Shown here: positions 3,890-52,462 of the stretch, piece by piece
Layout: the number at the start of each line of letters is the position of its first letter
How positions within the stretch are numbered: the stretch's first letter is position 1
Origin: Dyadobacter sp. 50-39
GTDB lineage: Bacteria; Bacteroidota; Bacteroidia; Cytophagales; Spirosomataceae
Direction of reading: 5' to 3'
Length of the DNA stretch: 64,000 nucleotides
Assembly: GCA_001898145.1 (NCBI GenBank)
Contig: MKSR01000037.1
Span: 1 to 64,000 of the forward strand
Notes under the pieces: model-generated
Seen by the model: the letters and a program-made list of their open reading frames with translations, nothing else
The model's database searches: none
What the model was told of the DNA's origin: nothing
Made by a program: the position numbers and the translations under genes

Positions 3890-3941
3890 TATAACTCATT
3901 TTTGCGTTATATTTGAGTTATAGAATAGGGGATATAACTCA
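3890..3941. promoter_or_regulatory. Three-copy operator TATAACTCA with promoter box before fic
   Basis: The 9-mer TATAACTCA occurs at 3890-3898 and 3933-3941, and its exact inverse TGAGTTATA at 3914-3922. The last copy overlaps the ATG of the Fic gene. A TATATTTG box (3908-3915), matching the Bacteroidota -7 consensus TAnnTTTG, sits between the first two copies. The arrangement strongly suggests repression, possibly autoregulation through the winged-helix-like C-terminus of the Fic protein. Confidence 0.6.
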
Positions 3942-6121: not shown

Positions 6122-7459
6122 ATGAAACTCATTTATTGCTCTACAGGGAAAAAACTGTCCTATATCCTGTATCTGCTCCTTGCTTACTTTCTGATGATAA
6201 TGTGGAGTCCGGCTCACGGGCAGGTCCCGCGCTCTTTGCAGGTCGGTGACCGGCTTCCGGGCGTTAGACTTTCCGGAGTAATGAATCACACGTCTTCTAC
6301 TGTTTCATTATCGGATTTTCGGGGTAAAGTACTTATTCTGGACTTCTGGGCCAGCTGGTGTGGCCCATGCATCAAGATGATCCCTGTCTTGGATTCACTG
6401 CAGCGGCAGTTTGACGGAAAGGTGCAGATTTTCTCGGTCACCAAAGAAAGCGAGCAGCAGATCCGTTCCTTCTATTTGAAATACCTGCGCCGAAATCCCC
6501 AACGTATAACCGTCCCCGGTGTGGCAGCAGACACGGTGGTCTCCCGTTTGTTTGATTTCAATGCCGTGCCGCACTATGTGTGGGTGGATCCATCGGGAAC
6601 AGTGCGGGCGATCACGGGCATGGAGGAACTGACGGAAGCGAATCTTTCCGCGATGATATCAGGCAAAGTGCCTTCAATGACGCAAAAGACAGACGAGCAG
6701 CGGATTCCTTACAGCGCTTTCTACCCGTTGATGCTTGACGGCAACGGGGGAGACGGATCGGGCATGCTTTATCATTCGCTGTTGTCGCGCTATACGCCCG
6801 GTCTTGGTTTTGGCCACTCGATCCTGCGTGATAGCACCTCGCATTTCCGGATCACCGTCAAGAACTGCGAACGCGCCTGGTTCTTTAAGATCGCTTACTC
6901 GAACGCTGGAATTCTGTTTAATGAGACAAACACGATCTTTCAAGTCCGTGACAAGGGTAGGCTGACCTCCTCGTTGGTGGGCGGACCTTATGAGCGGTGG
7001 CTGCAGGACGGAAACGGCTTTTGCTATGAGCTTGCCGTTCCGCTTGAAAAAGAAAAGCTTGCTTTTGAGCTGATGCAAAAAGATCTCAGGCTCTTTTTCC
7101 CTGAATACATCTCGGCCGTTGAAACACGCGATACGACCTGTCTGGCCTTGCGGCGGATTTCGACCAGTAGGGCGCTTGCCAGCACCGGTGGCAAAACGCT
7201 TCTTGATTTGGGACCCTATGAGTGGAAGGTTTCTAACGCGACTATCAAACAGATCATCAGGCGTCTGAACTACTTCCAACGGCTGGATAAAATTGTTATT
7301 GACCAGACAGGCTATCAGGGCAAATTTGATATGCTCCTAACGGCGGGCTATTCGGATCTGAAAGCGCTCAACGCAGAGCTGGGCAAATACGGCTTTGCTT
7401 TGGAGCCTGTCCAGGCCCCGATACAGGTACTCGTGATCCGCGACAATGATCAACCTTAA
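6122..7459 (+). CDS. TlpA-like thioredoxin protein with DUF3738-like C-terminus
   Basis: Exported thiol-disulfide oxidoreductase of 445 residues. A signal peptide or N-terminal membrane anchor (about 10-33, ending AHG) precedes a TlpA/AhpC-type thioredoxin domain (about 38-178) with the active site WASWCGPC near residue 78. The long C-terminal part ends with a DUF3738-like segment (DQTGYQGKFDMLLTAGYSDL, then LNAELGKYGFALEP and VLVIRD), found in Bacteroidota and Acidobacteria secreted proteins. It is the first gene of a four-gene plus-strand operon, 11 bases before susC, then susD and the LanC-like gene. A role in keeping periplasmic or peptide cysteines reduced would fit, but this is inferred. 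Confidence 0.88.
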   Translation: MKLIYCSTGKKLSYILYLLLAYFLMIMWSPAHGQVPRSLQVGDRLPGVRLSGVMNHTSSTVSLSDFRGKVLILDFWASWCGPCIKMIPVLDSLQRQFDGKVQIFSVTKESEQQIRSFYLKYLRRNPQRITVPGVAADTVVSRLFDFNAVPHYVWVDPSGTVRAITGMEELTEANLSAMISGKVPSMTQKTDEQRIPYSAFYPLMLDGNGGDGSGMLYHSLLSRYTPGLGFGHSILRDSTSHFRITVKNCERAWFFKIAYSNAGILFNETNTIFQVRDKGRLTSSLVGGPYERWLQDGNGFCYELAVPLEKEKLAFELMQKDLRLFFPEYISAVETRDTTCLALRRISTSRALASTGGKTLLDLGPYEWKVSNATIKQIIRRLNYFQRLDKIVIDQTGYQGKFDMLLTAGYSDLKALNAELGKYGFALEPVQAPIQVLVIRDNDQP

Positions 7460-7470
7460 CAGGCCAGGTT

Positions 7471-10400
7471 ATGAAAAAATATATATTGATTTTTCTGCTC
7501 CTTCTGATAGGAGCGCGCCTTTCGGCGCAGTCAGCCTATCAAGCAAAAGGCACTGTCAGCGGAAGTGACGGCGCCCCTCTTGCCGGCGCATCGGTCGTAG
7601 TGAAAGGAACAAGCCAGGGTGTAATGACGGATTCGCTGGGGCATTTCCGGATCAGCGTGCCCTCTGACACTTCTGTTCTGGCCATTTCATTCATCGGCTA
7701 TCTGACCAAAGAAGTGCGCGCGGATTCCAGGGAGGCAATAGATGTCAAGCTGGTTGAAAACGCCAGCCAGCTCACAGAGGTGATGGTCTCGATCGGCTAT
7801 CAGCAACTGCCCAAAGAGCGTGCGACGGGCTCGTTTGCACAAATCGACCAGCAGCTTTACAACCGCAGCGTAGGGGCCGACATTGTCAGCAGACTGGCAG
7901 ACGTAACGCCGGGTCTGATCTTTAATCGTGGGATTGTGAAGCCAGGTAGCCAAACCAACATATCGATCCGCGGTGAAAGTACGCTTTTTGCCAAGGCGGA
8001 TCCGCTGATCGTGATTGATAACTTTCCTTACACGGGCGATATGAACGCAATCAATCCCAACGACATCGAAAGCGTGACGGTGCTCAAAGACGCTGCCGCA
8101 GCCTCGATATGGGGGGCGCAGTCAGCCAACGGCGTGATTGTAATCACCACCAAAAAGGCCGCTTATGATCAGCCGCTCAGGGTCAGTCTGAACAGCAACA
8201 TCACCTTTTCGCAAAGGCCCGACCCGTATTATCTGCCTAAGATGTCAAGCTCTGAGGTGATCGATATGGAGCAGCTGCTATTTTCTCGCGGTTATTACCG
8301 GGCGGCTGAAACCAGCCCAAACAAACCGGCGCTAAGCCCAGTGGTTGAGCTTTTAATTGCAGCCCGTGACGGCCGGATCACCCAACAGGCCGCCGCCGAC
8401 CAGATCGATGCGTTCCGAAAGCTGGATGTACGCGATCAGTACGCAAAGCATCTGTACCGAAGCAGCGTCAATCAGCAGTACGCTCTGGGCATGCAGGGTG
8501 GGGGCAAGACTTCCCGCTTTCTGCTCTCTGCCGGTTTTGATAAGAACTTGTCTGCTGCCAAGGGCGATGGCTTTGAGCGTATCACCTTGAATGCCAACCA
8601 AAGTGTGTCTGTTTTGAAAGGGAAGGCAGAGCTCACCACGGGCATTTACTACACCAACCAGGATGCGCTCGAAAACGCGGTAAACCCATCGATGTTTAAC
8701 CAGACTTCCACAGCGGCTGTCTATCCGTATGCGACTTTTACCGACGCAGGCGGCGCTGCCTTGCCGCTCAACCACTATTACCGCAATAGTTTTTTGGATC
8801 AGGCCCATAGCCAAGGGCTGCTGGACTGGACCTTTGTGCCTTTGACCGAAATCGGTCTTGTCAATAATAGGAAGCGGCAGATCGATTACCGGATCAATTC
8901 CGGGCTTCGCTACACGATCCTTAACGGGCTGTCGGCCGAAGCGCTGCTGCAATACACGGCAAGCAGCAGTAAAAGCCGCCGGTTGCAAAGCCAGAACAGC
9001 TGGGCGGTTCGTGACCTGATCAACCGGTTTACCAGCGTCTCTGAGGGCAGTATCACCCGCGCAGTACCGCTAGGCGATATTTTAGACCAGTCGTTTTTGG
9101 ATGTGTCCGGATACTTTGCTCGGGGCCAGCTCAACTATGACAGGCTGCTGGCCGGAAAGCATCAGCTGACTGCCATCGCAGGCGCAGAAGTCCGTGATCT
9201 GGCGACCAAAGGCAGCTCTTGGCGCGCCTATGGTTATGATGATCAGATCGGTAGTTTTCAACAGGTAGACTACCTGAGCAATTTCAAATCCTATGTCAAC
9301 CCAGCGTCTGCCTCCAACCGGATCCCCCAATATGGTGGCATCACCGGAATGACTGACCGGTTTATTTCCTATTACGTCAATGCCGGCTACACCTTTGATG
9401 GCAAATACATCTTTTCGGCCAGCGGGCGAAGAGACATGTCCAACCTGTTTGGCGTAAATGCCAATCAAAAAGGGGTGCCGCTATATTCAGTCGGACTCGG
9501 ATGGAATCTGCATCATGAGAAATTTTTTGCGCTCCGTTGGCTTCCTTACCTGAAACTTCGGGCTACCTACGGCTACAATGGCAATATCGACCGGACACTT
9601 GCCGCGCAGGTAACAGCCTCGTACAGCAGCGCGGCACAATCCTCGATCGGCCTTCCGTATGCGACTATTCGCAACCCGCCTAATCCGGACCTTCGCTGGG
9701 AACGCGTCAGGATGATAAACCTGGGACTGGATTTTAAGACGGCAGCAGGCCGCCTGTCGGGAAGTATTGAGTACTTTCAAAAGAAAGGCATCGATCTGAT
9801 CGGCAACGCCCCACTGGCTCCGCAAACAGGCCTTACCAGCTTCCGCGGCAATACGGCGCACACCAGCGGGCATGGCTTGGATCTGATCATAAACAGTAAA
9901 AATCTGACGGGGAAACTTGGCTGGCAAACCCAATACATGCTCAGCTATGCGGCCATCAAAGTCACCAAGTATCTACCCAAATCTAGCAACCTGCGGGGTG
10001 ACTACCTGAGCACCTCGCTCGGATTTCCCACCGAAGGAAGGTACTTCAACAGCATTTACAGCTTGCCATATGCCGGCCTTGATCCTGAAAACGGGGATCC
10101 GATGGGTATGCTTGATGGGCAGGTCAGCAAAAACTATGGCGCGCTTTTGTCGGTTTCTGACCTGAACGCTTTAATCTACCATGGCTCCTCGCGGCCCTTG
10201 GTGTTTGGCGGGCTGCGCAACACGCTCAGCTGGGGCGGCTGGACGCTGTCGGCCAATGTCAGCTACCGGCTTGGCTATTATGTGAGAATGCCGTCAGTGG
10301 TTTATTCCCAGGTGCTTAGCGGCGTGCAAGCGCATGGAGATTTTAGCAGGCGCTGGCAGAAGCCAGGCGATGAGCTTCATACGCACGTCCCCTCACTTCC

Positions 10401-10671
10401 GGCGGCCAGCAATAGCAACCGGGATCTGTTCTATACCGCCTCGGAGGCATTGGTAGAAAAAGGTGATCACATCCGTCTGCAAGATCTTCGATGCAGCTAC
10501 TCGTGGAAATCTGCCCGGCAGCGTGCTGTGATAAACGATGTTGAGATTTTTGCCTACGCTGCAAACCTGGGTATCATCTGGAAAAAAAGCGGAACCGATC
10601 TAGACCCTGACTTCAGGGACAGTAACCCGCCGCTGCGCAGCATTTCATTTGGCGTCCGTGCTAATTTTTAA
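7471..10671 (+). CDS. SusC/RagA-family TonB-dependent outer-membrane transporter
   Basis: Outer-membrane importer of 1066 residues that works with a SusD lid protein. A signal peptide (1-20, ending SAQ) is followed by a carboxypeptidase-regulatory-like beta-sandwich (about 25-105, with DSLGHFRISVPSDTSVL), then the plug domain with the SusC fingerprint PLIVIDNFPYTGDMNAINP and VTVLKDAAAASIWGAQSANG (about 180-230). The rest is a TonB-dependent beta-barrel ending in RSISFGVRANF. Substrate cannot be read from sequence; no glycan enzymes are nearby, so a peptide or other non-glycan ligand is plausible. It is followed 11 bases later by susD, and lies in one operon with a thioredoxin and a LanC-like protein. 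Confidence 0.95.
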   Translation: MKKYILIFLLLLIGARLSAQSAYQAKGTVSGSDGAPLAGASVVVKGTSQGVMTDSLGHFRISVPSDTSVLAISFIGYLTKEVRADSREAIDVKLVENASQLTEVMVSIGYQQLPKERATGSFAQIDQQLYNRSVGADIVSRLADVTPGLIFNRGIVKPGSQTNISIRGESTLFAKADPLIVIDNFPYTGDMNAINPNDIESVTVLKDAAAASIWGAQSANGVIVITTKKAAYDQPLRVSLNSNITFSQRPDPYYLPKMSSSEVIDMEQLLFSRGYYRAAETSPNKPALSPVVELLIAARDGRITQQAAADQIDAFRKLDVRDQYAKHLYRSSVNQQYALGMQGGGKTSRFLLSAGFDKNLSAAKGDGFERITLNANQSVSVLKGKAELTTGIYYTNQDALENAVNPSMFNQTSTAAVYPYATFTDAGGAALPLNHYYRNSFLDQAHSQGLLDWTFVPLTEIGLVNNRKRQIDYRINSGLRYTILNGLSAEALLQYTASSSKSRRLQSQNSWAVRDLINRFTSVSEGSITRAVPLGDILDQSFLDVSGYFARGQLNYDRLLAGKHQLTAIAGAEVRDLATKGSSWRAYGYDDQIGSFQQVDYLSNFKSYVNPASASNRIPQYGGITGMTDRFISYYVNAGYTFDGKYIFSASGRRDMSNLFGVNANQKGVPLYSVGLGWNLHHEKFFALRWLPYLKLRATYGYNGNIDRTLAAQVTASYSSAAQSSIGLPYATIRNPPNPDLRWERVRMINLGLDFKTAAGRLSGSIEYFQKKGIDLIGNAPLAPQTGLTSFRGNTAHTSGHGLDLIINSKNLTGKLGWQTQYMLSYAAIKVTKYLPKSSNLRGDYLSTSLGFPTEGRYFNSIYSLPYAGLDPENGDPMGMLDGQVSKNYGALLSVSDLNALIYHGSSRPLVFGGLRNTLSWGGWTLSANVSYRLGYYVRMPSVVYSQVLSGVQAHGDFSRRWQKPGDELHTHVPSLPAASNSNRDLFYTASEALVEKGDHIRLQDLRCSYSWKSARQRAVINDVEIFAYAANLGIIWKKSGTDLDPDFRDSNPPLRSISFGVRANF

Positions 10672-10682
10672 TTCAACGAACC

Positions 10683-12044
10683 ATGAACAGATATTTGATT
10701 TGGCCAGTGATGTCCGCCTTGCTGCTGATGAGTGCATGTCAGCAGGATTTTATGGATGCAAAGCCGGATAAGGCCCTGGTTGTTCCGACTACCATAGTGG
10801 ACTATCAGGCCATTTTAGACAATTTTAATACAATGAATACCCCCGGACTCAACCTGATAGCGGGTGACGAGTTTGTCACCACCGATCAGATGTACCAGGC
10901 TTTGGAGCAAGTCGAGCGGCAGACATATTTGTGGGCAGACGATCTGTACGAAGGGGGTAGCTCCACCGACTGGGAATCTTGCTATAAAGCTGTTTTTACT
11001 GCAAACATTGTCTTGGAAGGGGCGGCAAAGCTGGCAGGGGAGGCCCCGAGCACAGAACTGGATAATCTTTTGGGATACGCCTATTTCTACCGCGCCAACG
11101 CCTTCTATGGCCTTGCCCAGCAGTTTGCACCGGCCTATGAGCCGCAAAATGCGCATGCCCAGATGGGAATCCCGTTAAAGCTTTCAGCCCAGGTGACAAC
11201 GACCGAGCCGCGCGCTACCCTTCAGCAGACGTATCAGCAGATTCTATCTGATTTGGAGCAGTCCCAGAAGCTGATCACCTCCGAGTCGGTATGGAGAAAT
11301 CGCCCTTCTCGCGCAGCTGCACTCGCTTTGAAGGCCAGGGTCTATCTGGCGATGGGGGCATATGATCTAGCCGAGCAGAACGCCTCGGCCAGCCTTGCCA
11401 TCAACGGGCAACTGGTTGACTTTAACGAGCTAGATGCCAAGGCCAGCCTGACTTTCCCTGATTCTCCCAGGCAGGCAAACAAGGAAGTGATCTTCTACGG
11501 ACGAATGAACTTTTATCTTTTCTTTTTTACGCCTTACTATCAGGTAGACCCGGTTTTGTATGCATCCTACGATTCGACAGATCTTCGGAAACAGTGTTAT
11601 TACGATACCCTTGCCGATGGAGCGGTGTGGTACAAAGGAAGCTATGCGGGGAGTTTTGGGTTCTTTAGTGGACTGGCCAACGATGAGCTTTACTTGATCC
11701 GGGCAGAATGCCGGGCGCGGCAAGGAGATACGGCCCCTGCTCTGGCCGATCTGAACACGCTGCTCGAAAAGCGCTACAAAAAAGGAACATTCAAGCCAGT
11801 CCAGGCCAGTGAACCTTCCCAGGCGCTGCGGGTCATCATTGCTGAGCGGAGAAAAGAGCTTGTCGCCCGCGGTATCCGGTGGACAGATCTCAGGAGACTC
11901 AACAGGGAAAAAGAGTTTGAAACCCTTATCCGCCGCCGCATCGACGGTAAAAATTATGTGCTTGCACCGGGCAGTCTCAAATATACCTTTCCCATTCCAG
12001 AAAACGAGATTTCAGCCAGCGGTATCCAGCAAAATCCCAGGTGA
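10683..12044 (+). CDS. SusD/RagB-family outer-membrane lipoprotein
   Basis: Surface lipoprotein of 453 residues that captures the ligand for the SusC pore. The signal peptide ends in the lipobox LLMSAC with Cys near residue 19. The family features are present in order: YQAILDNFNTMNTPG near the N-terminus, TPR-like helices (LLGYAYFYRANAFYGLAQQF; SRAAALALKARVYLAMGAYD), and the C-terminal segments LIRAECRARQGDTAPALADL and IIAERRKELVARGIRWTDLR. Length is slightly shorter than average. It follows susC by 11 bases and precedes the LanC-like gene by 15 bases, which makes co-expression likely. Confidence 0.93.
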   Translation: MNRYLIWPVMSALLLMSACQQDFMDAKPDKALVVPTTIVDYQAILDNFNTMNTPGLNLIAGDEFVTTDQMYQALEQVERQTYLWADDLYEGGSSTDWESCYKAVFTANIVLEGAAKLAGEAPSTELDNLLGYAYFYRANAFYGLAQQFAPAYEPQNAHAQMGIPLKLSAQVTTTEPRATLQQTYQQILSDLEQSQKLITSESVWRNRPSRAAALALKARVYLAMGAYDLAEQNASASLAINGQLVDFNELDAKASLTFPDSPRQANKEVIFYGRMNFYLFFFTPYYQVDPVLYASYDSTDLRKQCYYDTLADGAVWYKGSYAGSFGFFSGLANDELYLIRAECRARQGDTAPALADLNTLLEKRYKKGTFKPVQASEPSQALRVIIAERRKELVARGIRWTDLRRLNREKEFETLIRRRIDGKNYVLAPGSLKYTFPIPENEISASGIQQNPR

Positions 12045-12059
12045 TAATACAGCTGACCC

Positions 12060-13196
12060 ATGACACTATTGAAGCAAGGAAAGAATCGCAAACGAATCAT
12101 GCAGCAAACCGTATCCGCTTTCAACTACGAGCCAGCGGCAGTGAAAGGTCTGGCCGAGATCCATGAGGCTATCGCCAAAGCAAGCTGGAAAGTATCCGGG
12201 TGTGGTCTTTCGCAAGGAGCGCTCTCCTGCGCGCTTTTTATCGACAAGTATGCCCGCTATCAGAAAATCGATCACGATGTTGAGCTTTCCAGGGAGCTTT
12301 TCGATCTGGGGTGCCGTAGCCTTGCGGTAGAAAGAAGTAGTTGGCTGGAATTGGCTGACCTGGCCCTGGTGTGCCACCGGTTTAGCCGCCGTCACATAGT
12401 GGAAGCTGATCCGGATTACTTCTTTGAGGACATTGACAAGATCGCCATTCAGGTTGTGCAGCACAATGGCCCGCTTACAGGTTTTAACAGCGCGCGCATG
12501 GGAGCGGCCCTGTATGCTATGAGGCGGCTGGCCGCGGGCGCCAGCGCTTTTAGTAAACCGGTCAGCTCGCTAACCTCTGCGATTACCTTGGACACCGCCA
12601 CTAGCGGCCCGGATCAGGCGGGTCCAGCAAAAGCCAACCGGTGCAGCCTTGCCGTTGGCCATGCGGCGCCAGTTCTTTTTGCCGCGGCTGCCTGCGAGCT
12701 GGGCCTGCTTGACAAGCGGCTACCCATAACCGGGATCAACTGGCGGATAGAGCAGATACTCTCCTTGTTTGATCCGGCTGTACCATCAGAGTTCAACACG
12801 GGATGGCATCATGGCGATTTGGGCAAGGCCTATGCGGTGCTACGGGCAGGAATGGCGTTTGAAAACAAAGGTTGGATCGGGGCGGGGATGCATATTTTGA
12901 TGTGCTGCGCCTATCAAGTGCTCAGTCAGGGCGTTCTCGGGCTGGATATTGCAGGGGGCGGAGCTGGGATGGCCCTGGTATTTCAAAAAGTGTACCGGAT
13001 CACTGGTCAATATGTTTTCAAAGAAGCCGCTGGCAGAATTCATTGGCTGCTTGCGCGGACGGCTATCGCAGTCGATGAGGGCAATATTGACGCCGGATAC
13101 AGCTTTAATCACGGCATATCTGGAATAGGGCTTGCCATTATCGCAGGGATGAATGAGCAGGACGAAGAACTCGATGAGCTTATGTGGCTGATCTAG
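12060..13196 (+). CDS. LanC-like lanthionine synthetase family protein, zinc ligands altered
   Basis: LanC enzymes are alpha/alpha-toroids that add peptide Cys thiols to dehydrated Ser/Thr, using a zinc held by two Cys and one His. This 378-residue protein keeps the repeated glycine-containing helical turns of the family: SQGALSCALFIDKYAR (about 47-62), NSARMGAALYAMRRL, GHAAPVLFAAAAC, WHHGDLGKAYAVLRAG, GGGAGMALVFQKVYRITG and NHGISGIGLAIIAG. The usual W-C-x-G is W-H-H-G here, and the usual C-H-G is G-G-G, so the standard zinc site appears absent. It may be a non-catalytic scaffold or use another mechanism. Translation may start at 12060 or at the ATG at 12099. It closes the thioredoxin-SusCD operon; LanB and the candidate precursor lie on the opposite strand downstream. 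Confidence 0.8.
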   Translation: MTLLKQGKNRKRIMQQTVSAFNYEPAAVKGLAEIHEAIAKASWKVSGCGLSQGALSCALFIDKYARYQKIDHDVELSRELFDLGCRSLAVERSSWLELADLALVCHRFSRRHIVEADPDYFFEDIDKIAIQVVQHNGPLTGFNSARMGAALYAMRRLAAGASAFSKPVSSLTSAITLDTATSGPDQAGPAKANRCSLAVGHAAPVLFAAAACELGLLDKRLPITGINWRIEQILSLFDPAVPSEFNTGWHHGDLGKAYAVLRAGMAFENKGWIGAGMHILMCCAYQVLSQGVLGLDIAGGGAGMALVFQKVYRITGQYVFKEAAGRIHWLLARTAIAVDEGNIDAGYSFNHGISGIGLAIIAGMNEQDEELDELMWLI

Positions 13197-13407: not shown

Positions 13408-13686
13408 TCAGGGTACATACCCGTTAGTAACCTGGGTGGCAGCCTGCGCATTGTCATCTGCGTTGTGCTCATTGGGATCGTAGTTTTCAGGAAAATCGGC
13501 CTGACAAATCCCTGAGCTGCTCACGCAACCATCGACTTCGCCTTGCTCCCAGTTCTGACTGGATGCGCCCCCCGTCCGGGTCCATCTCTGAGCTTGTTTG
13601 CCTGGAAAGTTTGCGGCCAAGGCAAGGGTGCTACCTAGCAGCAGTGCCGCTAGGGGAAGCATACTGAACTTGTTTCTGGTTTTCAT
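13408..13686 (-). CDS. Small secreted protein, DUF6520 family
   Basis: A 92-residue exported protein with a clear signal peptide (residues 1-24, MKTRNKFSMLPLAALLLGST then LALA) and a short mature part rich in Gly, Ser, Asn and Asp. Two cysteines lie close together in DGCVSSSGICQADF, consistent with one disulfide. The pattern matches DUF6520, a Bacteroidota family of small secreted proteins of unknown function, often encoded beside MauE-like, TlpA-like and Crp-like genes as here. It is the last gene on the minus strand before the shared terminator. A substrate of the neighbouring thiol-redox proteins is a reasonable inference, not shown. Confidence 0.75.
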   Translation of the reverse strand: MKTRNKFSMLPLAALLLGSTLALAANFPGKQAQRWTRTGGASSQNWEQGEVDGCVSSSGICQADFPENYDPNEHNADDNAQAATQVTNGYVP

Positions 13687-13789: not shown

Positions 13790-14224
13790 TCAGATTTTGG
13801 AAAGCAAGCCTCCTTTCATTTGGTGGATGATGTATATACCTATCAGCGAGATAGCCAGAAAGAAAAGGTTAAATAGCAGATGGGAGCCAAAACCCATTTG
13901 CTGCAATACGCCTCCGCAGGAACACGGCGTTTTTTCAAAGACATTCAAGAGTACCAGGCCGATGTAGCCGGTAAAAATCAGCATCATCACAGCCGAAAGG
14001 TAAAGTCCGTAAACTCTTGTAGATGTACGTAGTAGCAGCGCAGTCGCTATCAGTTCTATGACAGGGATCAGAACGGCTAAGGGGCCGATTAACCCCGCCG
14101 GAAAAGGCTGCATGCGCAGCTGCGTGCGAAATACTTGCAGCGAAGCCAGTTTGGACAGCGCCGTGTAGCTATACAGGATAATGAGCAGGGCGGTGATGAT
14201 GGTGAGCATGTTCTGTCTTTTCAT
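13790..14224 (-). CDS. MauE/DoxX-like membrane protein with CSC motif
   Basis: Integral membrane protein of about 144 residues with four hydrophobic helices (about 5-25, 45-65, 70-95, 115-140). The segment TPCSCGGVLQQMGFG between helices 3 and 4 has the paired cysteines typical of MauE-like proteins, which are related to the vitamin-K-epoxide-reductase/DoxX group and pass electrons for disulfide formation or reduction. I use the ATG at 14224 (MKRQNMLT); the open frame goes further up to 14500 but that part overlaps the Crp-like gene and is not membrane-like. It lies between a Crp-like regulator and the DUF6520 gene. Likely partner of the TlpA-like protein and of DUF6520 cysteines. Confidence 0.8.
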   Translation of the reverse strand: MKRQNMLTIITALLIILYSYTALSKLASLQVFRTQLRMQPFPAGLIGPLAVLIPVIELIATALLLRTSTRVYGLYLSAVMMLIFTGYIGLVLLNVFEKTPCSCGGVLQQMGFGSHLLFNLFFLAISLIGIYIIHQMKGGLLSKI

Positions 14225-14367
14225 CGGGCATGTTTCGATTGGCGATTGAATAGAGGCAAGCCTAGCGGCTTTGTTGAAAGCAAGTTGGCTTTTTACAATG
14301 AGCGCAGACTTCGGGAAAGTGAAGCGATGATTGAAATGTTTTCTTACCAGGCAGGGGCCTACACAAG

Positions 14368-14925
14368 CTATTTTTTTCTTATTTCGCTCAGCGTCTGCGG
14401 GGTTATCCCTAAAAAGCTGGCCGTATCCCGAAGGGGGAGCTTGTAGGCAAAGAAGTGGTGCTGGAATTCGGCATATGCTTGCCGCGCGGGCATCGCACAT
14501 AGGTGCGCTTTAAGTTCTCCCAGGTTTCTGTCCAAAAGCAGGATCCGGGCCGCAAAGCGCGCAGTTTGCAGTTGTGTGAGTCCTAAGCGTAAGGCCGTTG
14601 CCTGGGTAAAAACCGAAAGCCTGGCGCATTCGAGCGCTTGCAGGTGATCCGCTGTGGCTATGTCATCCTGCTGAGCGTTTGTCAGCAGAATGATCTGTCG
14701 ATCCCGCCAAAAGCGGGTAACCCTCTCTCGGCCATTTTCGTCATAGTAAAACCCTTTCACAGTACCGTTGTGGACGAAAAATGCCTGGGGCCGGTCAGTG
14801 TCTTTGCAAAGGATTTGCCCCTTGCGCAGCGTTCTGTTGACTGGCATCCTGTTGAGCAGTTCTGCCAAGGCCTCGTCCTTGTCATATGCGGCCAAAATCG
14901 CCTCGATCAGGTTGTGTTCGCTCAT
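14368..14925 (-). CDS. Crp/Fnr-family transcription regulator
   Basis: Protein of 185 residues with an N-terminal cyclic-nucleotide-binding-like beta-barrel (LRKGQILCKDTDRPQAFFVHNGTVKGFY, about 33-60) and a C-terminal helix-turn-helix (LPLRDTASFLGITPQTLSEIRK, about 163-184). The size and the LGITPQTLSEIRKK ending are typical of short Bacteroidota Crp-like regulators that do not need cAMP. There are no FNR-type N-terminal cysteines for an iron-sulfur cluster. It sits 9 bases downstream of RteC and upstream of the MauE-like gene, so it may be part of one minus-strand unit and may control the redox and lanthipeptide genes around it. Confidence 0.87.
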   Translation of the reverse strand: MSEHNLIEAILAAYDKDEALAELLNRMPVNRTLRKGQILCKDTDRPQAFFVHNGTVKGFYYDENGRERVTRFWRDRQIILLTNAQQDDIATADHLQALECARLSVFTQATALRLGLTQLQTARFAARILLLDRNLGELKAHLCAMPARQAYAEFQHHFFAYKLPLRDTASFLGITPQTLSEIRKK

Positions 14926-14934
14926 CTGGACCGC

Positions 14935-16125
14935 CTAGCGCATTTCGTGTTCCTTGATCCACTTGGCCACCGAGTCAAGTATTTTCAAAACGCGCTCTTT
15001 GTCGGAGGCTTCAAATTGGTAGGCCTTCGAACGCATGCTCTCCCAGGATATCTCCTGCTTGCGGGGCGTTGATAGATGGGGAGCAATGTGCTCAAATACG
15101 CTGTTAAGTGATTTAGCTTGGATGATTCTTAAAGAATCCAGGGCTCTGAGGATGAGCGCAATCTGATCGATCGATAGCACACAAAGAATTTTGCCCGGAC
15201 CGGTCGAGCGGGTCTTCTCAGCGCGATTCGTCTCTGCAATACCCCATCTTAACCCTGCATCCAAATAGTCAAGTTCTGCATCAAGCCAGCGGCCAACCAT
15301 AGTTTTCACGCTTGGCAAGGCAGGATCAAGCGCGTGCTCAGACTGTTGGTGCAGCTGCGTGAATCTTTTCCGTGCCCAAAGTAGCTGGTTGAGCTTTTCG
15401 GTAAGGCTGTGAAAGCCGTTGATGTGCGCTGAGAGTTGGCCGGTGTAATAATCGATAAAGGACCGGCAGTTGAAGTTCATAAAGATGAGCGTTTCAATGA
15501 GCGCGTCCAGAAGATGGCCCTCTTCTGCTGCCAGCCTTTCAAGGTGGCTAAGAAGTTCCTGGTGATAGAACACCTCCCGAAAACTTGGTTTGTATTTGCT
15601 TGGCTCAGCACTCAACCGGCTCAGCTGGTCACTGATTATCGCTGCAACCGGCGAGCCTGCTGCGACGCTCTGCAGCCATGGGCGCACCGAATCAAGCCGG
15701 TTGGCCAGTGTCTGTTTTAAGCCTGCAAGCCGCGATGATGGCACCTTACAGTCTAGGTCGATGTATTCCCCGAAACGGTGCTCGATGAAGTCAAGCAGCT
15801 CATAGATAGCCTCACGGGCGGTCTTGCTTAATGTATTTGCCTTTTCACCATAGCCTGGGTTTTGCCGTTCACCCTCAAAGGCGGTTTCCAATAGCAAAAC
15901 CAGTGACTTCTGGTACTGGCTGACTATGCGCTGGATCTTGCGCCGACTGAAAGTCATGAAACCGGCCCGGGAAAGAAGTGTTTTGCTTTGATTTATTTCT
16001 TGGCGGATCTGGGTCTGAATGCTTTCCAGCTGGCCAGCATCTAGTGCGGCTATATTAGTTTTGGAAGGATTCAAAATTGTAGTGACCGCAAGATCAAGCC
16101 ACTCGAAAGCATATTTGCCATCCAT
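14935..16125 (-). CDS. rteC: RteC-family regulator of conjugative element excision
   Basis: RteC controls excision functions of tetracycline-type conjugative transposons (CTnDOT). This 396-residue protein shows the family layout: a helical N-terminal half, a middle segment FMNFNCRSFIDYYTGQLSAH (near residue 215), and a C-terminal region with LSIDQIALILRALDSLRII followed by HLSTPRKQEISWESMRSKAY, which resembles the RteC C-terminal winged-helix-like part. It is longer than the archetype. No rteA/rteB pair is beside it; a LytS/LytTR pair occurs about 500 bases upstream instead. Its presence inside the lanthipeptide locus suggests that the biosynthetic genes ride on, or entered with, a conjugative element. 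Confidence 0.78.
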   Translation of the reverse strand: MDGKYAFEWLDLAVTTILNPSKTNIAALDAGQLESIQTQIRQEINQSKTLLSRAGFMTFSRRKIQRIVSQYQKSLVLLLETAFEGERQNPGYGEKANTLSKTAREAIYELLDFIEHRFGEYIDLDCKVPSSRLAGLKQTLANRLDSVRPWLQSVAAGSPVAAIISDQLSRLSAEPSKYKPSFREVFYHQELLSHLERLAAEEGHLLDALIETLIFMNFNCRSFIDYYTGQLSAHINGFHSLTEKLNQLLWARKRFTQLHQQSEHALDPALPSVKTMVGRWLDAELDYLDAGLRWGIAETNRAEKTRSTGPGKILCVLSIDQIALILRALDSLRIIQAKSLNSVFEHIAPHLSTPRKQEISWESMRSKAYQFEASDKERVLKILDSVAKWIKEHEMR

Positions 16126-16314
16126 TCGCTTCGGCCGTTTAAAACTTTATATCATTTTCAAGACGGGCGGCTGCCCGGCGTGTACCGAAAGGAGAGTTTC
16201 TGCAAAGCTGCTTTTGGGAAAGAATCTAGTCAACTTAAGTAGACAAAATGCGAAAATCTGTATAGGAAGCCCTTGGGTGAGCCGACTGAGACCACGCATT
16301 AAAAGCTAATTAAA

Positions 16315-16348
16315 GAGCCAACCGGACCTTTCTGGTCACAGTTGGCTC
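16315..16348 (-). terminator. Rho-independent terminator after the candidate lanA gene
   Basis: An 8-bp stem (GAGCCAAC with GTTGGCTC) plus an inner GACC/GGTC stem forms a strong hairpin, followed on the minus strand by TTTAATT. It starts 22 bases after the stop codon of the 47-aa precursor gene and supports that gene being a real transcribed unit. Confidence 0.75.
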
Positions 16349-16370: not shown

Positions 16371-16514
16371 TTACCGGCGAATGCCGCAAGTAGTGCCGCT
16401 GGTCGTAATGGTGTCTGGACCGCCGTTTGGCTTTGGTGCGGCAGCACGCCGGGCAAGGTTTGCAATCACGCGCCTTTTTAGCTGGATTGGTTCATTGTTT
16501 TTTTGATTTTGCAT
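16371..16514 (-). CDS. Candidate class I lanthipeptide precursor (47 aa)
   Basis: A short gene missed by length cutoffs. It starts MQNQKNNEPIQLKRRVIANL; the segment LKRRVIANL matches the leader pattern of Bacteroidota lanthipeptide and GG-type natural-product precursors (L-x-K/R-x-x-I/V-A-x-L). An Ala/Arg/Pro stretch follows, then Gly31-Gly32 as a probable double-glycine cleavage site. The predicted core PDTITTSGTTCGIRR has five Thr, one Ser and one Cys, so dehydration of several residues and at most one (methyl)lanthionine ring are possible. It lies 102 bases downstream of the LytS-type kinase stop, on the same strand as LanB, and ends before a terminator (16315-16348). No C39 peptidase/ABC exporter is in the window. 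Family identity is inferred from pattern and context, not from a search. Confidence 0.75.
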   Translation of the reverse strand: MQNQKNNEPIQLKRRVIANLARRAAAPKPNGGPDTITTSGTTCGIRR

Positions 16515-16528
16515 CGGGCTTCAATTTA

Positions 16529-16550
16529 GGGCTGCATTTATGCAGTGCCC
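16529..16550 (-). promoter_or_regulatory. Hairpin/palindrome just upstream of the candidate lanA
   Basis: CTGCAT-TT-ATGCAG (16532-16545) is a perfect 6-bp inverted repeat, extended by GGGC/GCCC with a small bulge. It ends about 15 bases before the precursor ATG. It could be an operator or a 5'-UTR hairpin that separates lanA expression from the upstream kinase transcript. Confidence 0.4.
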
Positions 16551-16616
16551 AAATCACGCCGCTTTTAGCTTGAAGGCAAAGATTAATAGATCAGTCGCTG
16601 AGATAAAGTATACCGA

Positions 16617-17756
16617 TCAGCCGATTAACGGGAATTGCAGGTACACCAAAAAGCTCAGGGGCCTCTCAGTTATTTTCAGCTGATGTCTTCCAGGGAAATA
16701 GGCTTCCAGCCTCCTTCGTAAGTTAACAAGCCCCAGTCCGCTTCTGCTTGTCTTTTCTTGTTCGCTTGGCGTGCTTGACGGTTTTGTGTTGAATACCTGC
16801 AATGTTATGCTACCGTCGTAGATCTGACATGTGATCTTTACGTAGGACGGCTCATCGGTGGCATGAACCCCATGTTTGAGCGCGTTCTCGACCAGGGTCG
16901 TAATAAGAAGCGTGGGTACGCTCCCGCTGGTGGTCGTTTGTCCTTCCACCTCAAAGACGATTTGGCTCCGGCGGCTGGTGCGCATCGCTTCTAAGGCGAG
17001 ATACTTTGAAATAAATTCAAGTTCTGTTTGAATCAGAACGAATTCGCTACGGGCCTGATAAAGGGTAAATCCGATCAGATCTGCCGCTTGAACCAGATAC
17101 TCCGAACCCTTGGCTGAATAGGTGCCCACCTCAACGCTGGCCGCATTAATCACATTGAACACGAAATGTGAATCTAGCTGCGCCCGAAGCGCTGTAAGCT
17201 CTTCTTGCAGCTTTTGCTTTTGAAGTTCCGAGTTTTTAAGATCAGCCATTGCGCCGAGCCTAATCCACTTGAGCCCGAAGGGAAGTGCAAGAAGCTGCAT
17301 GTCCATTAAATCGTAGACGAATACGTAGTAGTCAGCTTTCTTTACGGGTATCCAGCTTCTAAGATAATAGCTGCCGATGGGTTTGAAATTTCTGGGAAGG
17401 TTTTCAAGGCCAAATTGGTTTTCGTAGAAGTGATAAAGCGGCTTTGTGACAAGGTGCATGGCTGCTAGGCATACAGCAAAGCCGAGCAAAGGACTGTACC
17501 ACGAATAAGACAGCTGGCCAATCAAAGACAAACACATCAGGGTCAAATAATATATCGGTATAAATCTGGCGTAATAAAGCAGGTATGCCAGTCTGGTGTC
17601 GTAGCTGTATATCCTTTCGGGAAAGATGGGTAAAAAAAATACCATATGATAGCAGATAAAGGCAGTCCAGAAGGCCAGATGGCCAGCTACGCGCATGGGC
17701 GAGCTGGCCGGCAACAATAGTTGCCTGTAAATACTGTTGGCACTACTTGTTTTCAT
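16617..17756 (-). CDS. LytS-type sensor histidine kinase
   Basis: Membrane histidine kinase of 379 residues. Four hydrophobic segments (about 22-42, 50-70, 75-95, 98-115) form the sensor part; a short coiled coil (LKNSELQKQKLQEELTALRA) leads into the His_kinase domain, with the phospho-acceptor region DSHFVFNVINAAS. The ATP-binding part has LVENALKHGVHATD (N box) and SGLGLVNLRRRLEAY (G box). It overlaps the upstream response-regulator gene by ATGA (17753-17756), so the two are co-translated. It sits between the LanB/regulator genes and the candidate precursor, so it may sense the peptide or an envelope signal and control the locus. Confidence 0.93.
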   Translation of the reverse strand: MKTSSANSIYRQLLLPASSPMRVAGHLAFWTAFICYHMVFFLPIFPERIYSYDTRLAYLLYYARFIPIYYLTLMCLSLIGQLSYSWYSPLLGFAVCLAAMHLVTKPLYHFYENQFGLENLPRNFKPIGSYYLRSWIPVKKADYYVFVYDLMDMQLLALPFGLKWIRLGAMADLKNSELQKQKLQEELTALRAQLDSHFVFNVINAASVEVGTYSAKGSEYLVQAADLIGFTLYQARSEFVLIQTELEFISKYLALEAMRTSRRSQIVFEVEGQTTTSGSVPTLLITTLVENALKHGVHATDEPSYVKITCQIYDGSITLQVFNTKPSSTPSEQEKTSRSGLGLVNLRRRLEAYFPGRHQLKITERPLSFLVYLQFPLIG

Positions 17757-18550
17757 AGCCGCCTCTTTCGGTTTAATAACTTCTCGATCACGCTTTCCTT
17801 GTTTTTGCTGGCCGGGATGGTAAAATTTACGCCGTCAGGCATTTTGAGCGTGTTGCCTTCGATGACCCGAATCGCTGAACGGTTTACAATATACGATCGG
17901 TGTATTCTTACAAATTCTGATGCGGGAAGCTTGCGCTCAATAGAGCCGATATTGCCCTTCACAACAATTACGCCCATTGAGCTGTGTACTTTCACATAGT
18001 CCTTTAATCCCTGGACGGCGTAAATTTCGTGCAGTTTAAAATGGTGGTGTTTCTTGCCAGAATAGATCCATATGGAGTCGTCCTCAAAGGGTAGCTGTGC
18101 TGCGGCTTGATCGTGATCGCTGTCGTCATCGGCTATGTAGACGGCTGAACCTTGAAGTTGAACAGCCTTTGCCATAAGCAGTTCTTTGGCCTTGGTGACT
18201 GCGCTGTTGAAGCGGCTCATGCTGAATGGTTTGAGCAGAAATGCGATTGCGTCATGCTCATAGCCCTCCAATGCATACTCGCGGAATGCGGTCGTCAAGA
18301 TAACCTGTGGTTTTGGGGAGTCAATCTTGCCGAGAAGCTCCAGGCCGCTGATGCCAGGCATCTTCACGTCAAGAAACAACAGGTCCGGCCTTTTTGCCCT
18401 TATCATTTCAATAGCCTGGGCGCTGCTGTAAGACTGGCCGGTAATTTTAAGCCAGGGAACTGATGCGATCAGCCGTTGCAAGGCGGCGTGAGAAGCCTGC
18501 TCATCGTCGATGATGAAACATGTAACCACAAAAGAAGAATTGGTGTCCAT
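17753..18550 (-). CDS. LytTR-family response regulator
   Basis: Response regulator of 265 residues: receiver domain (about 8-125) with acidic pair in CFIIDDEQ, phospho-Asp in LLFLDVKMPGISG and Lys in FLLKPFS; then a LytTR DNA-binding domain (about 160-262) with IYAVQGLKDYVKVHS and FVRIHRSYIVNRSAI. It is cotranscribed with the kinase through a 4-base overlap and lies 144 bases downstream of LanB. LytTR factors bind pairs of direct repeats; I did not find a convincing set in the short upstream gap. Likely regulator of LanB and the candidate precursor. Confidence 0.94.
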   Translation of the reverse strand: MDTNSSFVVTCFIIDDEQASHAALQRLIASVPWLKITGQSYSSAQAIEMIRAKRPDLLFLDVKMPGISGLELLGKIDSPKPQVILTTAFREYALEGYEHDAIAFLLKPFSMSRFNSAVTKAKELLMAKAVQLQGSAVYIADDDSDHDQAAAQLPFEDDSIWIYSGKKHHHFKLHEIYAVQGLKDYVKVHSSMGVIVVKGNIGSIERKLPASEFVRIHRSYIVNRSAIRVIEGNTLKMPDGVNFTIPASKNKESVIEKLLNRKRRL

Positions 18551-18694: not shown

Positions 18695-21600
18695 TTACCT
18701 GAAATGTCCAATAGTTTTTGTCGAGCGGTATTGTTTGCTTAAAAAATACAGCAGAATCATCTCCTGTTTCCGGTGTGCGCTTTCTAAAATCCGGTTGATA
18801 AACATATGCACGTAGCTTGCTATTTCGGGTAATGAAAGGCTGGCGGTGAGCAGCTCCCTGATTTTTTCAGAGCGGATTTTGAAATGATCCGATACTTTGA
18901 TGCACAATTCGGACGGGTTTGCAAGCGCCTGGTCAATAACGGGCCGAGTCTGCCTGTATTTGCGGTCAAGCTGGCGGGTAAATGTTTTGTCCTGAGACAA
19001 TTCCTGCATGAATTGAAGATAGGCGTTGCTGGCGAATGTCAGCTTTTGGTCTATGCTCATCTGAAAATCATCCAGTAAAGCATCGATTCCGATCAGTGCG
19101 GCCTGTAACCGTGCGGTGTCTTGGGCTTGGTGCTGCAATTCCGAAATGATTTCGATGCATGCAAGGCTATCGTAGTAAAAGATTGATTCTACACTTTCAT
19201 ATCCCAGGCTTGCATACCGTTCTAGCTCGCGCTCGTATGTGGCCGTCTGAATCTGCTCGATTCGGCTGCTATCAATCTGGCCTGTCAATGCCAGGTGTAG
19301 CCTTCCGAGCGCGATCTGCCAGTCTTCTTTCTTTGTGAGCATTACGCGCAGCCGGATATGGGAGCTGGGTTCAAAATAGCGTAGGAAATACCATTTGCGA
19401 ATCATCCCCTGTTCTGTGAGCGTCTTGCAAGCCGGAGCGATGCGGTTAAGCAGTATCGTGTCCAGTAAGGCGCACTCGGCATATATTTGAAGATAAAGCC
19501 ATTGGCTTCCCAAATGAAATAGTCGGGTATCAGCAAGGTCCGGTAAGAGTAGGGGACTGGCTTCTTGGCTGACCTTAACGATAGGCTTGAAAGCCAAGAC
19601 TAGCTCGTGGGCAAATCCTCCCATCAAATCAGCGTTAATCGAGCCGCTCACATCTGGTAAGTACTGTTGGATTTGGCTGATGCTTTGTTTTTGAAGCTGG
19701 ATAGCAAAGAGCTCCATAGAAAAACGGTTTTCACTATCAAAAAGCAGCAAATTATCCCCATGGCCAGCCTGGAAGTATCGGGGTATTTGAAGCTGCTGCT
19801 TTAAAGCGCTCCATTTTACCTGACAGCCAATGGCATTCAGAATGCGCTCTCGCAACACTGCGCAAACCGTCCATTTTGCAGGCGTTAAGATCAGATGCCG
19901 GTAGCTAATCATAGGAAGGAAAGAAAAATCTTCCAAGTGTTCCCAATCCCAACGCAGCAGCTCAATATCCTGATTGGCAACCTGGGAAAGAAACCGGTAG
20001 ACCGGCAGCCCTTGATGGTAGTTGTGTGCGGATGTGTTGTGAACAATAATTTGTTTGCCCAACCGGATGCTGGTCAATACAAATTTGCCTTCCTTGGAGA
20101 GTGAAACCAAAATGTCATTGATACTGATTTGATTTGCTTCTTTCAAGGTGGAATGCGCCAGATAGGGGATTTCGTATGGCCAAAGCCGGGGCCTGGCCAA
20201 AACGGCGGCTGCCCTGTCGTTTGGAATATGAGCGATTTCAGCATGAATGGCCTTCGCGTTTTCGCTAGCGATGAAATGGGCGGCACTCGTTAAGTAAGCA
20301 GTCAGTGCAGGGTCGTCTTGGGCGCACCTTGCCATTAGTTCCAGTCCCGACTGCCCGCCGGAAGCTTTTAGATAAAAAGCGAAGTGGCCGGCGTCCAACT
20401 CCTGCTGATTAGAGGCAATTAGTTCACCCAACCAGTATGTACCATGTTCACAAGGCGCCTCTTTGGAAATCTCCCTAAGATCGTAATCGTTGATTTCAAT
20501 ACGGTCTGTCCCGCTACGAAGCGCTCGATCGAGTAGCTGTTGTTTGAGTTTGCCAGCTGGGCTAGCCCCTGGCAACTGTTGGGTTTCGGTGAAGGTAAAT
20601 TCGAGCTGTTCCAGTAGTGATGGCGTCATCGAGCCTTGTATGCTGATCTGGGCATACTGGGTTCCCATCGGACTATCCATCAGCTCAGTGAGTGGCACTT
20701 GGCGCTGGCCGTGCACTGTTTTAAAGTTATTTTTGAGCTCATCAAAATAGGACGGATGTAGGCTATTTCTCCTAAGTAAGCCTTTGATGGCAGAGAATTC
20801 TTTTGCCAGCCGCTCTACTGCCTTTTTTTGCAGCGAAAAGCTAGCGGCTTTCATGGTGAGCTGTGCGCGGAAAAATGAAGCGCTGATGCTGTTAGGAACA
20901 AGGGCTGAAATTTGCCGGGCGGCACGGTCCAGTTCGGATGCGGATGTATGGGGTGAAAGATCATTGAGCATAGACCAGAGCTGTTTGATAGCTGTTGATC
21001 GGTACTGATGTTGATCTAAGTATGCCTTCAAGCGGTCCTGAAAGTCGGGACCTGTGATATTGTAGTTAAGCTCACTAACCAGAATGCCTGCGTCAACTGC
21101 CTCCTCAATGAACATAACAGCCTCACCCAGGCCGATTGAGCAAGCCATTAATTCCGTCAGCTCGACCTTCGATTTCCACTGTTTGGATGCCTGGATTAAT
21201 AGACTTAGGTGAGCAGAATAGGTAACTTCTATCAGGTTTTCTACTGCGTGCGCTCCCGCTGACGCGCGCTCGATGTAGCGGTAACCATTCCTTGAAGGGT
21301 ATAAGCTGCTATTAACCCTGTAAAGAGTGTGCCGATCTCCATTGATTTGCTCCTGCAAATAGCGAGCTATGTGACTGAGGACCTCAGGCTGAAAGCGGAT
21401 GCTCTTGGTGATGTTGCTTGCCTTCACGGAAGTCAGGTTTGTTTGACCTGAAAGCTTACCTGCCCCGGTCGCAGAGAAAAGGCCGAATGGGGTTGCTCTG
21501 GTGGTGATTCTGATTAAATATTTGTAGAGTGAGAACAGTATTTTGCGGCGCGTATTTTCCGGTGAATGAAATGAATACTGCGTGAGAGCTGCGTGAAGGG

Positions 21601-21772
21601 AGGGCGAGGCGATGTATATAGCATCACTAAAATCTGACTGCCGGAATAGCGCAAGCAGCAAAGTTTCCCACTTGTCAAAATCCGCACCGCTTTGAAGATG
21701 CAGCTGCAAAAGTGCTGAGATCGGCGTAGCTGCGCGTCTGATCAAAAAGAACTCGTAAGGCTCATTGTTCAT
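18695..21772 (-). CDS. LanB-type lantibiotic dehydratase, full length
   Basis: Class I LanB enzymes use glutamyl-tRNA to glutamylate Ser/Thr of a precursor peptide and then eliminate glutamate to give Dha/Dhb. At 1025 residues this is a full-length fused protein. The N-terminal glutamylation part has the hallmark RATPFGLFSATGAGKL (about residues 92-107) and FLSQVANQDIELLRWDWEHL further on; the C-terminal elimination domain (SpaB_C, about 745-1010) has SQWLYLQIYAECALLDTIL and WYFLRYFEPSSHIRLRVML, where the F-x-R-Y-x-x-P-x-x-H-[IL]-R-x-R motif is intact. It heads the minus-strand unit LanB - regulator - kinase - candidate lanA. The LanC-like protein is encoded about 5.5 kb away on the other strand. 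Confidence 0.92.
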   Translation of the reverse strand: MNNEPYEFFLIRRAATPISALLQLHLQSGADFDKWETLLLALFRQSDFSDAIYIASPSLHAALTQYSFHSPENTRRKILFSLYKYLIRITTRATPFGLFSATGAGKLSGQTNLTSVKASNITKSIRFQPEVLSHIARYLQEQINGDRHTLYRVNSSLYPSRNGYRYIERASAGAHAVENLIEVTYSAHLSLLIQASKQWKSKVELTELMACSIGLGEAVMFIEEAVDAGILVSELNYNITGPDFQDRLKAYLDQHQYRSTAIKQLWSMLNDLSPHTSASELDRAARQISALVPNSISASFFRAQLTMKAASFSLQKKAVERLAKEFSAIKGLLRRNSLHPSYFDELKNNFKTVHGQRQVPLTELMDSPMGTQYAQISIQGSMTPSLLEQLEFTFTETQQLPGASPAGKLKQQLLDRALRSGTDRIEINDYDLREISKEAPCEHGTYWLGELIASNQQELDAGHFAFYLKASGGQSGLELMARCAQDDPALTAYLTSAAHFIASENAKAIHAEIAHIPNDRAAAVLARPRLWPYEIPYLAHSTLKEANQISINDILVSLSKEGKFVLTSIRLGKQIIVHNTSAHNYHQGLPVYRFLSQVANQDIELLRWDWEHLEDFSFLPMISYRHLILTPAKWTVCAVLRERILNAIGCQVKWSALKQQLQIPRYFQAGHGDNLLLFDSENRFSMELFAIQLQKQSISQIQQYLPDVSGSINADLMGGFAHELVLAFKPIVKVSQEASPLLLPDLADTRLFHLGSQWLYLQIYAECALLDTILLNRIAPACKTLTEQGMIRKWYFLRYFEPSSHIRLRVMLTKKEDWQIALGRLHLALTGQIDSSRIEQIQTATYERELERYASLGYESVESIFYYDSLACIEIISELQHQAQDTARLQAALIGIDALLDDFQMSIDQKLTFASNAYLQFMQELSQDKTFTRQLDRKYRQTRPVIDQALANPSELCIKVSDHFKIRSEKIRELLTASLSLPEIASYVHMFINRILESAHRKQEMILLYFLSKQYRSTKTIGHFR

Positions 21773-32658: not shown

Positions 32659-32981
32659 CACTGTGCCGGATTTACTATTGCATACCAGAATTGGTTTCGT
32701 ATCTCCTGGATTTCGGTCAGCATGTCTCGCCCTGCCGTAGTAATCATGAAAAGCCGCTTTCTTCTTCCTCCCCGGCTTAAGGTGGCGCCGCCCATTTCCG
32801 AGGTGACAAAACCTTTTTCTTCGAGCCGGTATAACGCAATATGCACAGCGCTGAGGCTGATGGTGCGATTAGTGCGTTGGCGAAGCTCTTCGGCTATGCT
32901 CACGCCATACGCTCCGGCGCCAAGCACGATGACGGTGAGCAGGACCAGTTCTTCAAACTCACCTAAATAGGGTCTTCCCAT
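32658..32981 (-). CDS. PadR-family transcriptional regulator
   Basis: A 107-residue winged-helix protein: LGEFEELVLLTVIVLGAGAY near the N-terminus, then a helix-turn-helix (ISLSAVHIALYRLEEKGFVT, about 40-60) and a beta-wing (SRGGRRKRLFMITTAGRDML). This is the PadR pattern. It is encoded immediately upstream of, and overlapping with, the FtsX-type permease, a standard Bacteroidota arrangement where PadR represses its own transporter operon. Confidence 0.92.
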   Translation of the reverse strand: MGRPYLGEFEELVLLTVIVLGAGAYGVSIAEELRQRTNRTISLSAVHIALYRLEEKGFVTSEMGGATLSRGGRRKRLFMITTAGRDMLTEIQEIRNQFWYAIVNPAQ

Positions 32982-47443: not shown

Positions 47444-47446
47444 ACT

Positions 47447-52267: not shown

Positions 52268-52462
52268 CGGTTTTTCAGGAACGTGGCTGTCAAATATCGG
52301 CCGGCACCTGCCGCATTCAAATACTGACTGAGCAACTGACAAACTTGAAGGAGTAAACTGCACGGTAAAATGCGCGTGTCACTCATTCAGGTGATTCATC
52401 TGCTCACCGGCCCTGATCTTTTCGCTAAGCAGGACTATATTTACTTGCTACCAAGATATCTT

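Follow-up and report, generated by a model that had tools for sequence, protein, structure and literature searches.

We conclude that the 47-aa open reading frame (ORF) at positions 16371 to 16514 on the minus strand of the window (the whole stretch of 64,000 nucleotides from Dyadobacter sp. 50-39 that was analyzed) is, judged by its sequence conservation, a genuine coding gene under purifying selection. The ORF encodes a LanB-associated precursor, that of a small, probably dehydrated peptide. The overall explanation that we favor, with a probability of about 0.6, is that LanB makes a minimal peptide with at most one ring, which would either form with no dedicated active cyclase at work or stay open. 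On balance, the precursor also appears to belong to a new LanB-type RiPP family, known so far from Dyadobacter and one relative.

The predicted peptide has a Gly-Gly at residues 31 and 32 and a core (...DTITTSGTTCGIRR) with five Thr, one Ser, and one Cys, and the gap between the LytS stop and the ORF is 102 bases. A sequence-only reading of this DNA had described this layout and taken the ORF for the unlisted lanA gene of a LanB cluster, with a product of at most one ring. The layout was borne out, the ORF was supported as the precursor gene of the LanB cluster, the core holds a single Cys, and neither NCBIfam nor Pfam names the peptide. The model search that had been proposed as a check gave no NCBIfam match for the window peptide at an E value of ≤10; among 24 family members, 1 reached NF038155 (E = 0.029). 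Neither Pfam nor NCBIfam holds a model for the peptide family, with single weak matches among the 24 members and none for the window peptide, and the literature searched yielded no paper tied to the TTSGxxC family. A second proposed check, on synonymous and nonsynonymous change, found coding constraint. Codon positions 1 and 2 were better kept than position 3 in 12 of 12 precursor pairs, dN/dS was 0.09 to 0.26 in 8 of the 12 pairs (dS was not estimable in the other 4), and an ATG and a stop were present in all 24 precursor ORFs. Alternatively, the ORF could be untranslated, and conservation could act on an RNA or operator element. This alternative is consistent with the stable hairpins that flank the ORF on both sides, but it is contradicted by the codon pattern, with dN/dS below 0.3 wherever it could be estimated, and we regard it as highly improbable. 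The hairpin after lanA (16315-16348, minus strand; fold z −3.1, with 0 of 200 shuffles as good) is a possible terminator and agrees with the earlier claim of one, but no terminator came up in a consensus scan. The upstream palindrome noticed earlier is also present (z −2.9, with 4 of 200 shuffles as good), but by eye it is absent from the upstream sequences of relatives, and it was rejected as a conserved operator.

Including that of the window, 26 precursors with TTSGxxC were found, 25 in Dyadobacter and 1 in another genus of the same family (G155). Three are paralogues with the same core in the genome of the window (contigs C7, C36, and C1), and a further 22 homologues lie elsewhere. The C7 paralogue (core TITTSGSTCGI) is located behind another LytTR/LytS pair; each paralogue set has its own LanB, and the genome holds four LanB-LytTR-LytS-lanA sets. 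The invariant columns of the 24-member alignment are M1, TTSG, and Cys. Exactly one Cys occurs in 25 of the 26 precursors, the leader of the remaining one (G096) holding a second Cys. Between 4 and 11 residues come after the last Cys, the first of them being Thr in 19 precursors and Gly in the window peptide. Two leader features put forward in the sequence-only reading did not hold for the family: Gly-Gly occurs in the window peptide alone (1 of 26), and I/V-A-x-L occurs in 4 of 26 (window, C7, G059, and G087). The published Bacteroidota leader LxLxKx5L was found in 0 of 26 precursors in its strict form and in 2 of 26 (window and G096) in a relaxed form. On these counts, Gly-Gly cleavage, I/V-A-x-L, and LxLxKx5L were all rejected as family rules. 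A scan of 28 window proteins, a subset of the window ORFs, recovered no C39 protease.

When the 222 genomes of the family were searched with a profile built on the first two peptides, G091, G059, G087, and G064 gave clear matches (E = 7e-12 to 1.6e-4); 81 of the 222 passed E ≤ 1, and only these four and the window's own genome (G000) passed 0.001. In a search beyond the family, 31 of 395 genomes had a match at E ≤ 0.1; apart from that in the own genome, the matches were weak (best E, 0.0015). Several of them, all from a single genus (f18 g92), have in common a short frame with ITTSGC at its end; this frame is probably the antisense of a conserved gene and was not taken as a precursor. The candidate at locus L159 is a different short peptide and was likewise set aside. 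Variant precursors with an ITTC core (DGITTCTIIST) occur at loci L092, L093, and L094, between LytS and the gene for X396, a helical protein without a recognized family, encoded behind lanA in the window (14935-16125, minus strand; no Pfam match).

The precursor ORF is linked to LanB and the LytS/LytTR pair. Loci were collected with X396 as the anchor (44 further stretches), and 20 LanB stretches were added later; X396 itself occurs at 56 places in 34 of the 222 family genomes. In 29 loci, LanB is followed by LytTR and then LytS (L095 is without a LytTR match). A TTSGxxC ORF lies on the contig of 25 of the 29 loci, and the ITTC ORF lies on that of 3 others (L092, L093, and L094). The remaining locus, on contig C25 of G086, has no TTSGxxC ORF in the 12 kb fetched, and contig C15 of that genome carries one beside X396. 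About 15 kb lies between LytS and lanA in G088. At 26 X396 loci, the stretch fetched contained no LanB. Of these loci, 24 (including L107, a truncated contig end) have no TTSGxxC ORF within 1.5 kb; the two exceptions are L100 (G088) and L102 (G086), with the LanB set farther off or on another contig. No TTSGxxC ORF was found at G090 C4 (L180), where LanB and LytTR occur without a LytS match, or beside a second Dyadobacter LanB type in which the regulators precede LanB (L178, L179, L181 to L192, and L197). These counts refer to a set that covers part of the LanB loci of the genus and leaves out, for example, those of G062, G063, G076, G079, G081, and G093. Duplicate records were counted once (L051 = L044, L052 = L092, L053 = L180, L054 = L113, L055 = L093, and L056 = L045), and L047 (a chance frame) and L135 (X396 missed by tblastn) were left out. 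The 29 do not include L133 and L134, which have the order LytS-LytTR-LanB, L180, in which LytS was not matched, or L196, whose LanB is cut by the end of the contig or lies next to it. Flank lengths vary, with L048 and L099 holding less than 0.5 kb upstream of LanB. The ORF search pattern required a T-rich stretch before the Cys and would therefore miss ORFs that have no such stretch; exact TTSG is stricter than that first pattern demanded.

The same-strand, full LanB named in the sequence-only reading was recovered at 18695-21772 (minus strand; PF04738 and PF14028; Lant_dehydr_N, E = 2.1e-97; Lant_dehydr_C, E = 1.7e-52). Its residues 10 to 996 align with 9g04, and residues 32 to 880 align with NisB, the latter alignment ending before the last part of the elimination domain. 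The segments R88-x3-R92-x-T94 (in YLIRITTRAT), HIRLR, and ERY are aligned, and we assume that they have the catalytic roles of their counterparts. The window LanB is apparently intact. In the G091 cluster (L043, 4572-7807), LanB seems to be split into ORFs of 658 and 414 aa. With respect to membership in the class I lanthipeptides, the LanB has both the glutamylation and the elimination domain, a linked short precursor with a Ser/Thr/Cys core is present, and no LanC that keeps the zinc-binding and catalytic residues was found in the cluster. The system would be class I lanthipeptide-like up to dehydration, with membership failing on LanC as tested.

A LanC-like protein is encoded in the window at 12060-13196 (plus strand; PF05147, E = 1.3e-5), 15 bases after the SusD gene. 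Its model has the LanC fold at a pLDDT of only 66.8, with PDB matches to MadC, GCR2, LanCL2, and NisC (E = 1.5e-5 to 5.8e-4). In NisC, as given in excerpts of PMC9889658, Asp141 and His212 are catalytic and Cys284, Cys330, and His331 are zinc ligands. All five positions are lost in 6 of 6 intact LanC-like proteins of these clusters: the residues, in the same order, are G, V, H, A, and G in the window protein; G, N, H, L, and T in C7; G, S, Q, Q, and R in G064; G, Y, P, R, and G in G155; G, T, Q, A, and S in G059; and G, T, L, A, and S in G087. The His at the Cys284 place in two of the six (window and C7) is itself a possible metal ligand. All seven of the high-scoring Dyadobacter LanCs compared retain the five residues (D, H, C, C, and H), a retention that is partly a choice by score because these seven come from the ten best-scoring loci (the long frames L136, L143, and L145 being omitted). 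The comparison also leaves out low-scoring LanC-like proteins beside the other LanB type, e.g., on G053 C3, G062 C92, G067 C20, G077 C21, G081 C16, G087 C75, and G094 C20. At 22 of the 29 loci, neither tblastn in the stretch nor PF05147 in the nearby part of the contig detected a linked LanC, and of a LanC-like gene in G091 only a fragment was seen. Since the window protein has none of the five residues, even one ring is not assured.

According to a rival explanation, the product is an ordinary class I lanthipeptide: a conventional LanC from another part of the genome would make the ring, and the local LanC-like protein would be irrelevant, e.g., endoglucanase-like. Degraded LanC-like proteins in Bacteroidales without LanB are taken as endoglucanase-like in passages of PMC10352776. 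The window's own genome has further LanC-like matches on C43, C12, and C28, so a cyclase acting in trans is possible; the C43 match is part of a frame of 803 aa, and other Dyadobacter genomes have long frames like it. The nisin-like S-x3-C spacing of the core also speaks for this explanation. However, no PF05147 match at E ≤ 0.1 was found in G058 (91% complete), a genome with both LanB and a TTSGxxC precursor, and G074, G080, G088, and G096 have a single partial match each, at about positions 169 to 262. Many matches in the PF05147 search span only about positions 169 to 266 and are presumably other proteins. G090 also has LanB and no PF05147 match, but no TTSGxxC precursor was found there, and G058 is therefore the one fair case of a precursor genome without a LanC-like match. 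In addition, the SusC-SusD-LanC order recurs in the window, G059, and G087 (in G087 with the gene on a separate contig), and the LanC-like gene is constrained in the one pair compared (dN, 0.17; dS, 0.86), which argues against irrelevance. We consider a conventional LanC elsewhere unlikely.

A different rival, compatible with the main reading, concerns function: the peptide may be mainly a pheromone, with LanB-modified LanA as the LytS ligand that induces its own genes and with antimicrobial action being secondary or absent. The role is plausible because a sensor kinase gene belongs to each set. In the window these are a LytS-type sensor kinase (16617-17756, minus strand; PF06580, E = 6.5e-13) and a LytTR response regulator (17753-18550, minus strand; PF00072 and PF04397). 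lanA lies behind LytS, and in 22 of 24 loci it is preceded by an operator of its own; one genome holds four LanB-LytTR-LytS-lanA sets, and no immunity gene was recognized. On the other hand, the window's own lanA operator is weak, several kilobases separate LytS from lanA or X396 in five loci, and nisin-type systems auto-induce and yet make antimicrobials. A mainly signaling role is therefore possible, but we would not assume it.

The operator evidence comes from 23 upstream regions aligned on a TTTG box that was chosen by hand in each sequence; the C7 region is without the box. They have in common TTG.TTTG, AAATTT, and a pair of half-sites with a spacing of 21 bp. Over lags of 8 to 30, identity peaked at 21 (0.380). 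In a narrower region, the lag-21 identity was 0.426, compared to 0.260 in row shuffles (standard deviation, 0.020; maximum, 0.315), which ignore relatedness. LytTR regulators use direct repeats at about 21-bp spacing. The first motif search recovered only the region of the TTTG box, which we take to be a Bacteroidota-type promoter element; this type fits the lanA promoter better than the E. coli type, and a scan for E. coli-type promoters found none. With a matrix built with the clade left out, 22 of 24 lanA upstream regions were within the top 2% of random locus stretches, compared to 6 of 24 for X396 (3 being the nearby lanA site itself) and 8 of 21 for LanB. The two failing operators were those of the window (P = 0.125) and G087 (P = 0.022). 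In the window, the family alignment places the operator and promoter at 16550-16617 (minus strand), with half-sites at about 16607-16615 and 16586-16594, 21 bp apart, and the TTTG box at 16550-16553. The tandem repeat at about 21 bp is seen at the family level, but the window copy taken alone is a weak match; of about 128,000 positions, 12 scored higher than the window lanA operator with itself omitted and 67 with its clade omitted. A second operator-like site lies upstream of X396 (16203-16270, minus strand; score, 9.6; P = 0.003 with its clade omitted); with nothing but the lanA site of the window itself omitted, it ranked second in the window. The best match in the window is at 39848-39915 (plus strand), upstream of a 197-aa ORF (40059-40652). 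We propose that lanA is probably under LytTR control. Two more LytS/LytTR pairs, one with a 7TMR-DISM sensor, are encoded at 46415-48160 and 52370-55185 (plus strand).

Behind lanA, X396 is followed by a Crp-like cyclic-nucleotide-binding regulator (14368-14925, minus strand; PF00027 below the cutoff, with the C7 paralogue above it), a MauE/DoxX-like membrane protein (13790-14500, minus strand; PF07291, E = 1.9e-28), whose listed start overlaps the preceding gene and whose true start is probably later, and a small DUF6520-like protein (13408-13686, minus strand; PF20130, E = 0.005, below the cutoff). X396 belongs to no Pfam family even through its distant members, and its model matched no PDB fold at E ≤ 0.001; its C terminus may resemble RteC. 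On the plus strand, with short gaps, a TlpA/AhpC-type thioredoxin (6122-7459; PF00578), a SusC-like TonB-dependent transporter (7471-10671; Plug and CarbopepD_reg_2), and a SusD-like lipoprotein (10683-12044; PF14322) precede the LanC-like gene. The X396-Crp-MauE genes with SusC/SusD also occur at loci that have no LanB, no peptide, and no kinase pair (e.g., L104, L105, and L112), which suggests that the peptide set is an addition to a standing uptake/redox module. As a tentative extension, which we hold to be less probable than the main reading, the loci may form a cyclase-free LanB-peptide branch in which LanC has decayed to a conserved noncatalytic binder (a partner, receptor, or immunity protein) tied to the SusC/SusD-TlpA-MauE module and the LytTR pair. 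Farther out, a Fic-family protein with DUF4172 (3941-5050, plus strand) and a TraG P-loop protein (92-2098, minus strand) are encoded, the latter hinting that an integrated conjugative element adjoins the cluster. About 8 kb past LanB, FtsX/MacB permease domains lie in a pair of overlapping ORFs that may be a single broken gene (30000-32661, minus strand). These pieces could be part of an exporter, with nothing tying them to the lanA cluster; they are adjoined by an integrase-core (transposase-like) ORF (33322-34143). An EptA-type phosphoethanolamine transferase and a PAP2 phosphatase (34512-36942, minus strand) are possibly a lipid A modification pair.

Under the main reading of a minimal LanB-made peptide, LanB would glutamylate the core Ser/Thr residues, of which T37, T38, and S39 are kept, and eliminate glutamate to yield Dhb and Dha. 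Dehydration is the step that the sequences support best. Cys43 could then add to Dha39 to form one ring, Ser39-Cys43, with S-x3-C spacing. Because ring A of nisin has this spacing, and because neither TTSG nor the Cys varies among the 26 precursors, one lanthionine ring is the simplest structure. Closure may be spontaneous or may involve the LanC-like protein as a mere binding partner, or the peptide may stay open; ring formation without LanC is possible at basic pH, above pH 7.5, according to excerpts of PMC9889658. Leader removal and export would fall to enzymes not recognized in the cluster. LytS/LytTR would control lanA and, in some loci, lanB or X396, and it may sense the product. If this reading is true, minimal LanB chemistry with one ring or none exists, and LanC can turn into a pseudoenzyme maintained by selection. 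A Dyadobacter genome with four paralogous sets would then be a small test system for cyclase-less ring formation and for peptide sensing by LytS/LytTR.

In Bacteroidota class I lanthipeptide clusters, LanB lies beside a short precursor with a Ser/Thr/Cys core (passages of Walker 2020, PMC7268733, and Lee 2023, PMC9993889), and RuiA of Runella gave three rings and was produced with a LanC (Lee 2023, in part). In contrast, the TTSGxxC family has one core Cys, neither LxLxKx5L nor a Gly-Gly rule, and a linked LanC that is absent or degraded. LanC-anchored lanthipeptide surveys would overlook such clusters; in the sections available, PMC7268733 sorts clusters around LanC-like proteins, and clusters without LanC would therefore presumably be missed. 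A class I lanthipeptide cluster with a LanC-type synthetase is described for Dyadobacter aurulentus, its precursor not being named in the portion of PMC12584681 consulted; compared by description only, it is from the same genus and likewise has LanB-type proteins. The pinensins of Chitinophaga are, like the product proposed here, LanB-type RiPPs of Bacteroidota, but pinensin LanB is split (PMC7268733, in part) and the window LanB is a single chain. The window peptide shares the T-S-x-x-x-C spacing with ring A of nisin, but it has Gly after the Cys and no second Cys after it, so the CTP(G/S)C motif is missing. "LanB only" homologues without a recognized LanA/LanC cluster are listed for Spirosoma, Pedobacter, and Microscilla in excerpts of Marsh 2010 (PMC3091789). 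Compared to those loci, as described there, the Dyadobacter family has an identified precursor and identified regulators.
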